This document shows positions 6,746 through 9,769 of a DNA stretch of 9,854 nt, one piece after another; position 1 is the stretch's first letter, and each line of letters begins with the position of its first letter. Under the pieces are notes generated by a model. That model was not told the origin of the DNA and searched no databases. It saw nothing but the letters and a program-made list of their open reading frames with translations. Source of the stretch: an archaeon (GTDB taxonomy: Archaea; Hydrothermarchaeota; Hydrothermarchaeia; JALTZZ01; JALUTC01). The stretch is from NCBI GenBank assembly GCA_027051265.1, contig JALTZH010000208.1:1-9854 (forward strand), written 5' to 3'. The position numbers were made by a program, and so were the translations under genes.

Positions 6746-7456
6746 ATGGTGGAAAGGAGAACGTTAAGTAGTGGTTATATTATTGTTGGTGCCTATGCTG
6801 ATAAAATAAGAAAAGTTTTATTCGGACATTTTTCCGATAAAATTAAAGCTAAAGAAATAGATCCAAAACTCGTAGCAAAATATGCTGGTGATTTAAATAA
6901 ATTCCTTTACGAAGTTTTAGTTAATAGATTAAAATTAAACAAAGGAGATGTTGTTAGAGTTAGGATAGATTATGAATACGATGAAGATTCAAAGGAATTA
7001 TCTTGGGATTTTACAACACTTAGATTAGAAGTATTCAGAAGAGAACCTGAAGAGAAAGTTAAAGAAATATTAGAAGAAGCTAAGAAGAAAGCAGAAGCAA
7101 TAATATCAGAGGAAATCGTTTACGATGTGAAAAAACTCGGAATAACAGAGCTTGGTGATGAAATCTATGAAGTTTATGTAAGTGATAAATCCGTAGGAAT
7201 CTTGCAGGTGACTAAAATAAACGAGGAAATAATAGTTAAGGGTGCTTTTACATACCCAGAGTCAAAAATAATAGAAAGAGCTAGATTAAAGATAGAGGAA
7301 AACATTGAAAATACGTTGAAATCAAACATCGGTAGTCTATTACTTACTGCCAAAGAATCGGATTACGATAAATGTGAGAAAATTATTGGAAGAATTAAAT
7401 CGTCTCTTGCTGAAGAAGTTGAAAAAGAAAAGGAAGAAGAATACAAATGGTATTAA
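6746..7456 (+). CDS. DUF2258-family protein (function unknown; possible nucleic-acid-binding role)
   Basis: The 236-residue protein begins with an ERRTLSSGYIIVGAYADK segment and continues with a conserved-looking core to about residue 110 (KGDVVRVRIDYEY, TTLRLEVFRRE). I recognise this as the crenarchaeal DUF2258 family (PF10015), for which a single-stranded-DNA-binding role is sometimes annotated without proof I can cite. After it comes a charged helical linker (about 108-125, EEKVKEILEEAKKKAEA), a second small mixed alpha/beta region (about 126-200), and an acidic/basic tail ending EKEKEEEYKWY. There is no signal peptide or membrane segment and only one cysteine (in YDKCEK), so it is a soluble, metal-free-looking protein. 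It stands alone, divergent from the radical SAM operon, and is followed by the folded element at 7494-7691. The start ATG 6746 is the first in frame and lies 25 bp from a TATA-like box. Confidence 0.75.
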   Translation: MVERRTLSSGYIIVGAYADKIRKVLFGHFSDKIKAKEIDPKLVAKYAGDLNKFLYEVLVNRLKLNKGDVVRVRIDYEYDEDSKELSWDFTTLRLEVFRREPEEKVKEILEEAKKKAEAIISEEIVYDVKKLGITELGDEIYEVYVSDKSVGILQVTKINEEIIVKGAFTYPESKIIERARLKIEENIENTLKSNIGSLLLTAKESDYDKCEKIIGRIKSSLAEEVEKEKEEEYKWY

Positions 7457-7477
7457 CTGTTATCCGTGCATATATCT

Positions 7478-7490
7478 AATTTTATTTTTT
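7478..7490 (+). terminator. U-tract terminator of the DUF2258-type gene
   Basis: A T-rich stretch (TTTATTTTTT at 7481-7490) begins 22 bp after the stop codon and directly precedes the folded element at 7494. It fits an archaeal U-tract terminator. Confidence 0.45.
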
Positions 7491-7493
7491 AGT

Positions 7494-7569
7494 TACGAAC
7501 TTCTTCCCCGCTACGAGTGGTAAGGATTCGTTTCGGATAAGTTTGTAGCTTCCGCTTAAGAAGTTCGTA
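7494..7569. repeat. long hairpin: 12-bp perfect inverted repeat with inner stem (first half of a folded non-coding element)
   Basis: TACGAACTTCTT (7494-7505) is the exact reverse complement of 7558-7569. Inside it, GCTAC (7510-7514) pairs with GTAGC (7545-7549), and ATTCG (7526-7530) pairs with CGGAT (7534-7538) around a TTT loop. The segment is clearly richer in G+C than its surroundings and has no coding potential. The inner 5-bp stem contains a T-G pair that is a G·U wobble only if the plus strand is the RNA, which slightly favours plus-strand transcription. Read on the minus strand it instead resembles, from memory, the right end and guide-RNA scaffold of IS200/IS605-TnpB elements (GAAGCTAC ... 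GTAGCGGGG). It could be a structured ncRNA, a decayed or non-autonomous IS200/IS605-type end, or a MITE-like palindrome. Confidence 0.55.
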
Positions 7570-7691
7570 GAGGTATGGTTTGGCAATGTATTCTGTTAAA
7601 CTTTACTTTATCAATTCCTCTAAGCTTACTTCGTTGCTGGTCTGACTTAGGAATTTCATTGATATTGTAAACTATTACAATGTATACCTCT
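7570..7691. repeat. second folded half: 8-bp closing stem with two inner hairpins
   Basis: AGAGGTAT (7569-7576) pairs perfectly with ATACCTCT (7684-7691), so this domain abuts the first hairpin with no gap. Within it, AATTCC plus TAAG (7613-7624, 2-nt bulge) pairs with CTTAGGAATT (7646-7655), and ATTGTAA (7664-7670) pairs with TTACAAT (7675-7681) around a 4-nt loop. Together with 7494-7569 it forms a compact element of about 198 nt between the DUF2258-type gene and the 3' end of mrp. A short open frame crosses it on the minus strand, but I see no family in it. This half gives the 7457-7708 spacer its content besides the terminator. Confidence 0.45.
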
Positions 7692-7708
7692 TGAATAAAG
7701 AAAAACAA

Positions 7709-8488
7709 TTAAATATTCACTTCTTTAAAGTAGTCTTTTTTTAAATCTTCAATCATACCATTATCGGATAAGTTTAAAATTTCATTATCTATAGGAACTT
7801 TAGCTATTATATTTAAATTATATTTGTTACAAAGTTTTTCCATTACGTCTCCTTTGAACATATTTATTCTTTTATTACAATGTGGACATATCATATATGA
7901 CATGTTTTCTATAATGCCTATAATTCTTGAATTTGTTCTTTTAGAAAAATCTATAGCTTTTTCAACAACAAACGCAGCTAGTTCTTGAGGTGTAGATACT
8001 ATTATTAAACCATCAGGTTTTAAATAATGAGTAATTACCAACGGCGCATCTCCTGTACCTGGAGGAAGATCTATGAAAAGATAATCCAACGAGTCCCATC
8101 TGGTAAATCTTAACATATCTACGATCATACTTCCAACAACGGGTCCTCTAAGTATTACGGATTTTTCATCTTTTGGAAGCAAGAATTGTACGGACATTAT
8201 TTTTATTCCATATTTCTTACTTTTTATTGGTAGTATCTCGTTGTTTGTTTTATCAGGTGCTATTCTCTCTTTCTCTAATCCAAAAATTTTTGGAATACTT
8301 GGACCATATAAATCAGCATCAAAAATTCCAACGTTCTTCTTCCTCTTTGCAAAACTTATCGCAAGTAAACTTGTTATTGTAGATTTTCCAACACCACCTT
8401 TTCCTGAAAGAATAGCAATTTTTCTTTTAATGTTTTGCGTTCTATCCCTTATATCTTTTAATATATCGAATATGTGTTCCCGAATTAT
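7709..8488 (-). CDS. mrp: Mrp/ApbC/NBP35-family P-loop ATPase, Fe-S cluster carrier, with no standard start codon
   Basis: Binds and delivers Fe-S clusters to apoproteins in an ATP-dependent way in the cytoplasm. Translating the open frame gives a complete family member of about 259 residues: deviant Walker A SGKGGVGKST (about 28-37), the DADLYGPSIPK segment, DLPPGTGD (about 140-147), and ENMSYMICPHC with the cluster-binding CPHC (about C201, C204). The reading frame is intact. However, between the preceding in-frame stop (near 8552) and the P-loop there is no ATG, GTG or TTG; the first ATG, at 8197, would delete the P-loop. The SD-like AGGGGGAG at 8495-8502 points to ATA at 8488 (or ATT at 8485) as start. 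Alternatively, one missing base in the G5 run 8497-8501 would join ATG 8505 to this frame. The start is therefore uncertain by a few codons. Nearby Fe-S enzymes are the LipS-like pair and TtuA. Confidence 0.88.
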   Translation of the reverse strand: MIREHIFDILKDIRDRTQNIKRKIAILSGKGGVGKSTITSLLAISFAKRKKNVGIFDADLYGPSIPKIFGLEKERIAPDKTNNEILPIKSKKYGIKIMSVQFLLPKDEKSVILRGPVVGSMIVDMLRFTRWDSLDYLFIDLPPGTGDAPLVITHYLKPDGLIIVSTPQELAAFVVEKAIDFSKRTNSRIIGIIENMSYMICPHCNKRINMFKGDVMEKLCNKYNLNIIAKVPIDNEILNLSDNGMIEDLKKDYFKEVNI

Positions 8489-8494
8489 TTTTAT

Positions 8495-8502
8495 CTCCCC
8501 CT
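8495..8502 (-). promoter_or_regulatory. SD-like site pointing to a non-canonical mrp start
   Basis: The minus strand reads AGGGGGAG, which can pair with the archaeal anti-SD with a G·U at one position and one mismatch. It lies 6 nt before ATA 8488 and 9 nt before ATT 8485. No standard start follows in frame. The same bases contain the G5 run that would explain the gene if one G were missing. Confidence 0.45.
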
Positions 8503-8543
8503 CATATTGAAAGTTTAAATTAACAGATGAAATGTATAGGAGG

Positions 8544-8597
8544 AATTTATTTTACTTATGATAAATCTAGCATTACGAAACTATATCTATTTATAAA
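8544..8597 (-). promoter_or_regulatory. TATA-like boxes upstream of mrp
   Basis: On the minus strand, TTTATAAATA (8597-8588) is the best TATA match and would give a leader of roughly 75-80 nt. A weaker TAAAATAAATT (8554-8544) would give about 30 nt, similar to what I infer for thrC. Either is compatible with SD-led translation. Confidence 0.4.
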
Positions 8598-8732
8598 AGT
8601 TTAACATTAAAAACAAATTTAAAATGTTCAGCTATTATAGATAGAGGTATATATTGATAAGAACAAAAAAGCAATTAGTGTTTAGTTGTTTGCATTTTTT
8701 CACATCTTTTTTATTTCTATATACATCTCGTG

Positions 8733-8759
8733 AGTTCCCGATCCCCGAAGTCGGGAATT
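8733..8759. repeat. GC-rich hairpin (7-bp perfect stem) in the mrp-ttuA spacer
   Basis: TTCCCGA (8735-8741) is the exact reverse complement of TCGGGAA (8751-8757), with a 9-nt loop; one wobble and one A-T pair extend it to 8733-8759. The 3' arm can instead pair with CCCG (8744-8747) to give a 4-nt-loop hairpin, because CCCGA occurs twice in the 5' half. No T-run follows directly on either strand, so it is not a standard terminator. It may be part of a small RNA, an operator or leader structure, or a remnant transposon end. Confidence 0.5.
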
Positions 8760-8774
8760 ACATAGGTCTCAGAG

Positions 8775-8860
8775 AGGTTTAAACTATACTTATAGTATTG
8801 TAAAGTAAAAATGGAAAGGATATAGATACTGGAAGGTTTAACTTATACTAGTAATATTGA
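8775..8860 (+). repeat. two imperfect direct repeats with palindromic cores upstream of ttuA
   Basis: Both copies start AGGTTTAA and then carry a similar A/T-rich stretch ending in ATTG: copy 1 at 8775-8800, copy 2 at 8834-8859, 59 bp apart. Copy 1 contains ACTATA-CT-TATAGT (8783-8796); copy 2 contains the palindrome TACTAGTA (8846-8853). Copy 2 is at the ttuA promoter position. They may be a duplicated promoter or a pair of binding sites for one regulator. Confidence 0.4.
8838..8848 (+). promoter_or_regulatory. TATA-like box of ttuA
   Basis: TTAACTTATAC lies about 20-25 bp before ATG 8864, the spacing expected for a leaderless archaeal transcript; no SD is present. It overlaps the second of the two direct repeats. 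Confidence 0.4.
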
Positions 8861-8863
8861 AGG

Positions 8864-9769
8864 ATGAAAGAGATGGTAGTATTGAAGTGTAAAAAGTGTA
8901 ACAATAAAGGAGTAATAACGATTCGTCATCGAAACATTACATTATGTAAAGAACATTTTCTTAAATATTATTTGAAGACAGTTGAATCTACCATTAAGAA
9001 ATATAGGATGTTTACTAAAAGAGATAAGGTTCTTGTTGCAGTATCCGGTGGTAAAGATTCGATGTCATTACTCGATGCACTTAAGAAGCTCGATTATAAT
9101 ATTAGTGCCTTATATATAAACCTTGGTATAAAAGACTATTCTGACCAATGTAAGAAGATTGTTGAAAAATATTGTAATGAAAATAATATAAATTTAATAA
9201 TATCAGATATTAAAGAAAATTATGGAAAATATCTTGAAGAATTTAAAAAGTTGAGAAGAAATTTATGTTCCGTCTGTGGAATCATAAAGAGATATGAAAT
9301 GAATAGAATCGCATATGAAAAAGGTTTTAACGCTATAGCAACGGGACATAATTTGGATGATGAGGTTTCGTTCATATTATGGAACCTGATGAATGGTAAC
9401 TTTCAATACATTAAACAAAAACCTGTTCTGGAAAAAATTCATGAGAAAACGGTTAAAAAAGTTAAACCTCTTATATTTCTAACAGAGAAAGAAAACTTAT
9501 TATATTCTTTATTAAATAATATTTATAGTATTCATTTAAGAATAGATTGCCCATACTCAACAAATGCCCCAACTAATATTTTGAAAGAAATGCTCAATAA
9601 ACTGGAAGAAAGAATTCAAGGAATTAAGATGAGATTTTATAAAAATTTCCTCAATAAATCATCTCAATTTCTTCCAAAAATTGATCACGAGATAAAATCA
9701 TGTAAGATATGTGGTTACATAACTTCTAGTAACGTATGTTCCTTTTGTAGATTATTTAGAAGAGGTTAA
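8864..9769 (+). CDS. ttuA: tRNA 2-thiouridine synthase, TtuA/Ncs6 (CTU1) family
   Basis: Adenylates and then thiolates a tRNA uridine: U54 in TtuA enzymes, wobble U34 in Ncs6/CTU1. The 301-residue product shows an N-terminal zinc finger (C9, C12, C28, H31), the ATP-pyrophosphatase P-loop SGGKDS (61-66), CSVC (C135, C138) and C229, which correspond to the three ligands of the catalytic [4Fe-4S] cluster in TtuA, the ATGHNLDDE motif (159-167), and a C-terminal zinc finger (C280, C283, C292, C295). All key residues are present and the length is typical. In archaea the sulfur usually comes from a ubiquitin-like SAMP protein; none is visible here. Sequence alone does not separate U54 from U34 specificity. 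ATG 8864 fits leaderless initiation; ATG 8873 is an alternative that would drop only three residues. It is divergent from mrp, whose Fe-S carrier role fits with a cluster-dependent enzyme, but shared regulation is not shown. Confidence 0.88.
   Translation: MKEMVVLKCKKCNNKGVITIRHRNITLCKEHFLKYYLKTVESTIKKYRMFTKRDKVLVAVSGGKDSMSLLDALKKLDYNISALYINLGIKDYSDQCKKIVEKYCNENNINLIISDIKENYGKYLEEFKKLRRNLCSVCGIIKRYEMNRIAYEKGFNAIATGHNLDDEVSFILWNLMNGNFQYIKQKPVLEKIHEKTVKKVKPLIFLTEKENLLYSLLNNIYSIHLRIDCPYSTNAPTNILKEMLNKLEERIQGIKMRFYKNFLNKSSQFLPKIDHEIKSCKICGYITSSNVCSFCRLFRRG

Follow-up and report, generated by a model that had tools for sequence, protein, structure and literature searches.

The mrp/NBP35-type gene on the minus strand of the 9,854-nt window (the whole stretch of DNA analysed, contig C208 of a 1.46-Mb assembly in 257 contigs) is intact and lacks a canonical start codon before its P-loop. 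We lean modestly towards the reading that it is translated from a near-cognate start, most likely the AUA at 8488. The same arrangement of a Shine-Dalgarno (SD) sequence and AUA or AUU occurs at the shikimate kinase and primase PriS genes, which makes occasional AUA/AUU initiation look like a trait of this genome, and the archaeon probably begins some of its proteins at these codons.

The stop-to-stop mrp frame (window 8551-7709, minus strand) spans 280 codons and is open throughout in translation. Its product matches PF10609 over nearly the full length of the domain (E 1.1e-83), and the nearest solved structures are PDB 2ph1 (E 2.5e-81) and 3kb1 (E 5.4e-80). The deviant Walker A motif GKGGVGKS that the Mrp/NBP35 family requires is present, together with a C-terminal CxxC cluster-binding motif (MSYMICPHCNK), and the protein belongs to the Mrp/NBP35 (ApbC-type) family of P-loop ATPases, predicted iron-sulfur carriers. 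No second Mrp-type gene was found in this 95% complete genome. The P-loop, the CPHC motif and the PF10609 domain are shared with 2ph1 and 3kb1, and the missing canonical start codon is the sole oddity. The preliminary description had reported an open frame without a standard start before the P-loop, and this is borne out: the first ATG, GTG or TTG is codon 119, the ATG at 8197 (8195-8197, minus strand), and the P-loop ILSGKGGVGKS lies 5' of it. This is the codon that a gene caller would choose, as was also foreseen, and a table-11 call would indeed yield a protein of 162 aa without the ATP site. Read from AUA, the gene covers 7709-8488 (minus strand), or 259 codons plus stop. Counted from query residue 16, 2ph1 and 3kb1 extend about 8 residues further towards the N-terminus, and the AUA and AUU codons correspond to query residues 6-7, a proximity that supports entry at these codons.

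Upstream of ATA 8488 (8486-8488, minus strand), the leader carries the SD sequence AGGGGG (8497-8502, minus strand), which includes a run of five G and pairs with UCCUCC at all six positions, once as G-U. The 20 nt preceding ATA 8488/ATT 8485 form a duplex with the anti-SD of -10.9 kcal/mol, a value matched by 0.3% of control ATA/ATT codons in the same genome; the anti-SD in these pairing and energy figures is assumed to be the universal archaeal tail. From the end of GGAG the distance is 6 nt to ATA 8488 and 9 nt to ATT 8485, so the earlier claim of an SD-like sequence at 8495-8502 sitting 6-9 nt before these codons stands, as do all coordinates given before for the start region. Among SD-led ATG genes, aligned spacings of 3, 4, 5 and 6 were found in 23, 25, 25 and 13 cases, and a spacing of 7 in 4. 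The aligned spacing is 4 for ATA 8488, within the 3-6 peak, and 7 for ATT 8485, on the shoulder of that peak, which makes AUA 8488 the best-placed codon. By both the energy and the aligned-spacing tests, the SD lies at normal spacing from AUA.

Further upstream, a TATA-like sequence, ACTTTTATAA, occupies 8600-8591 (minus strand), and the gene at 6746 has the identical 10-mer 31 nt ahead of its ATG. From this box, transcription of mrp probably begins near 8569, so that the transcript would carry a leader of some 80 nt instead of starting leaderless at ATG 8505. Gibbs sampling for a TATA motif in this genome returned a meaningless motif, and position counts of TATA words gave a weak signal, so the promoter argument is one of sequence inspection. 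In the proposed mechanism, the 16S rRNA 3' end would bind AGGGGG in this leader, and this pairing would position AUA in the P site. There the initiator tRNA, whose anticodon is CAU, would begin translation despite the third-position mismatch, presumably less efficiently. The leader also contains TTCCTCC (8538-8544, minus strand), which can pair with GGGGGAG. The predicted fold around the SD was no more stable than shuffled sequences (z -0.19), and masking of the mrp SD in such a hairpin, with possible regulation, is only a lead; if it does occur, mrp would be a regulated weak start.

The wider genome was surveyed in 852 kb of the assembly, with genes called by a dicodon model. GC content is 26.7% (first 367 kb). 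An SD is recognisable in about one third of genes, and those lacking one show T at -1, a feature also described for S. solfataricus genes that are leaderless (PMC7531240). Normal SD spacing and the leaderless-type T at -1 are shared with archaeal SD-led and leaderless initiation as described there, whereas the start codon proposed for mrp falls outside AUG, GUG and UUG. The 666 best-scored genes were scanned for an SD score of at least 13, a spacing of 3-6 and no earlier canonical start. When the next canonical start had to lie at least 10 codons on, 7 genes were left; in 4 of these a canonical codon comes 14 to 25 codons later, or the gene sits at the edge of a contig. With at least 30 codons, exactly three genes remained: mrp with ATA, L143 with ATA and L080 with ATT. 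ATA and ATT together make up 10.1% of codons, and the chance of finding one of them in the SD slot of all three genes is about 0.002, an approximate figure for a gene set picked for absent canonical starts. The aspartokinase gene L195 was considered as a further case and rejected; it has an SD-like site, but its normal ATG lies about 19 codons on. A radical SAM protein gene (L145:2290-3933), whose first 125 codons contain no ATG, GTG or TTG, was left out of the count as it lies near a contig end.

L143 scores 260.6 bits against TIGR01920 (cut-off 126.85) and encodes the archaeal type of shikimate kinase. Its start region reads AGGAGG-GATTACT-ATA TCT AAA, and the ATA lies near the position of the M in the G002 protein (MIGEAYALASGT). 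The third gene (L080:8163-9083, minus strand) encodes the DNA primase PriS (TIGR00335, 221.5 bits, cut-off 143.5), with the start region GAGGTG-TTACAAT-ATT. The orthologue in a genome of the same genus is 68% identical and starts at an ATG that overlaps the stop of the upstream gene, indicating that the non-canonical PriS start is derived. In the present genome, about 29 nt carrying the palindrome GTTACAATATTGTAAC are inserted between ATGTTTAGA and a conserved GAAGTA; the same-genus orthologue shares ATGTTTAGA and lacks the insertion. The comparison indicates that the old PriS start was lost through this frame-displacing insertion, and that the SD-ATT is now the best-placed predicted entry.

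Against these data we weighed the possibility, raised in the preliminary description, that one G has been lost at mrp, by assembly error or truly. With six G, the gene would read ATG AGG GGG GAG from ATG 8505 (8503-8505, minus strand) and begin MRGEIKII. The run at 8501-8497 is G5. It leaves ATG 8505 a single base off the mrp frame, and this ATG opens a four-codon ORF (ATG AGG GGG AGA TAA, MRGR*) that enters the mrp frame only with G6 or a -1 shift. At least one homopolymer frameshift, real or artefactual, is known in this assembly (a DNA glycosylase gene with an A9 run), and the T at -1 of ATG 8505 suits leaderless starts here. However, ATG 8505 has no SD (duplex energy +1.0) and no convincing TATA at -25, the good TATA lies about 95 nt upstream, and the perfect SD spacing of AGGGGG from ATA would be an accident. 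The loss of a G would also leave shikimate kinase, PriS and the scarcity of other frame breaks unexplained. We consider it unlikely, and no evidence was found for the phase switch at the G homopolymer that had been suggested with it.

A base-call error or strain-level mutation that replaced a usual ATG, GTG or TTG at 8488 or 8485 is likewise an improbable account. ATA is one base from ATG, the SD is suitably placed for it, and the 26.7% GC suggests pressure towards ATA. Random single substitutions in these genes would, however, produce about 22.6 nonsense codons (some 23) for every lost start, and at most about three nonsense-type breaks were seen in the sample (L120, L152 and perhaps L193 at a contig edge), against two start losses of the substitution type. 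From these numbers 0.13 start losses are expected, and two or more by random error have P of about 0.008, again approximate for genes picked for absent canonical starts. Both probabilities speak against generic error when the three genes are taken as a set, which sequencing error explains poorly; they do not extend to each gene singly, and for mrp by itself an error may still apply. That a few broken frames do exist in the assembly counts against the AUA/AUU reading.

The yardstick for error was the nonsense and frameshift breaks at L193, L120, L152 and L198. At L193:74 the C-terminal part of IleRS is cut by a stop near the contig end, at L120:17187 an in-frame stop lies within a nuclease-like gene, and at L152:5522-5701 a UDP-sugar dehydrogenase gene is broken. 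The DNA glycosylase gene (L198:1265-1896, contig C23) is frameshifted at its A9 run; the same-genus genome carries it as a single open frame.

AUU 8485 (8483-8485, minus strand) ranks second among the candidate start codons, and initiation there instead of at AUA 8488 is doubtful. Pairing of GGAG alone (8498-8495) would give this codon an aligned spacing of 4, and AUU is the classical start of E. coli infC (PMC5472188), but the longer AGGGGG pairing places it at 7, where few ATG starts are found. The earlier suggestion of real initiation at AUA or AUU is thus supported, by SD spacing more for the former than for the latter. Recoding, in which translation would start at ATG 8505 and shift by -1 ribosomal or RNA polymerase slippage on G5, is very improbable: GGG GGG permits a -1 shift, the stop comes at once and one archaeal -1 frameshift is known, in fucA (PMC8211752), yet the slippery run, stimulator and 0-frame initiation site of programmed -1 frameshifting were not found together at mrp, where ATG 8505 is without SD, G5 is short and no stimulatory structure exceeds shuffles, and nothing like this slippery run occurs at shikimate kinase.

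Initiation of mrp at AUA is the preferred reading, and a broader version of it, to which we give somewhat less than even credence, is that this lineage routinely starts proteins at AUA or AUU, perhaps also AUC, essential ones such as the primase and shikimate kinase included. Strong SDs would compensate for the weak codons, and that of mrp could be hidden by TTCCTCC. Were this so, start-codon selection would be relaxed relative to known archaea. The presence of aIF1 in this genome speaks against the AUA/AUU reading; in S. solfataricus, aIF1 disfavours non-canonical starts.

The RaSEA gene (L080:5929-6978, plus strand) was dropped from the near-cognate count, having no SD and an A9 run. It has no canonical start near its N-terminus in either genome of the genus; the same-genus copy (L217) has none before a TTG at codon 8. 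A TAA and the A9 run just before the gene are conserved in both genomes, and the ATT here and the ATC in the same-genus genome align by eye with the ATG of G002. Either a near-cognate start or poly(A) slippage may apply to this gene.

Neither mrp nor shikimate kinase was detectable in the one same-genus genome compared, and the homologues in G002, about 50% identical, have ATG. No near-identical or same-species copies were found in genome contigs (best 46%) or within the order.

Starts of this kind are documented in bacteria. In S. aureus, infC, ccpN and citZ start with AUA and cvfC1 with AUU, the SDs of infC, cvfC1 and ccpN are predicted to be extended, and the non-canonical starts yield about 10-30% of AUG in reporters (PMC13009471). 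With these genes and with E. coli infC and pcnB, mrp shares a candidate AUA or AUU start, a correctly spaced SD that is strong or extended, and a liability to be overlooked or wrongly annotated by gene callers (PMC13009471, PMC5472188). By this analogy, mrp appears to behave as a gene whose near-cognate start is rescued by its strong SD. The bacterial starts are IF3-controlled and verified by ribosome profiling and reporters, whereas the present cases involve aIF1 and archaeal factors, concern housekeeping genes and are known from sequence alone. Among 61,358 reconstructed AUG starts of bacteria and archaea, one switch to AUU was reported (PMC5622118). The start codons named by one archaeal review are AUG, GUG and UUG, and AUA or AUU starts go unmentioned in the searched open full text of the archaeal reviews PMC7531240 and PMC6412873.

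AUA/AUU initiation, known in bacteria, is proposed here for an archaeon. If it is correct, the accepted archaeal start set of AUG, GUG and UUG is incomplete, and in archaeal genomes rich in AT, gene callers would shorten or miss essential proteins. In the present genome they would drop the Mrp ATP site and, from PriS and shikimate kinase, the conserved N-termini. The genome would also offer a natural system for how start selection based on aIF1 and aIF2 tolerates a third-position mismatch.

Two other elements of the window recur in the assembly. The intergenic stretch between a ThermoDBP-like gene and mrp (window 7457-7708) shows minus-strand structure (z -2.9) and contains ACGAACTTCTT...AAGAAGTTCGTA, with related pieces in L121, L171 and L079. 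It had no Rfam match and could be a non-coding RNA or the end of an insertion element. A CRISPR-like leader block (GTGAGTTCCCGATCCCC...) together with a degenerate 28-nt repeat (GTTTAAGCTATACTAGTAGTATTGAAAG) was seen at about 20 places, either singly or in pairs, among them window 8675-8864, L079:8618, L079:13200, L112:19200, L149:6606, L164:761 and L160:4308. The repeat ends a few nucleotides from a gene start at the TtuA-like gene of the window and in L079, L112, L149 and L164, as if these units perhaps served as promoters. A multi-repeat array of the same GTTTAAGCTATACTAGTAGTATTGAAAG-type repeat lies at L080:395-760.
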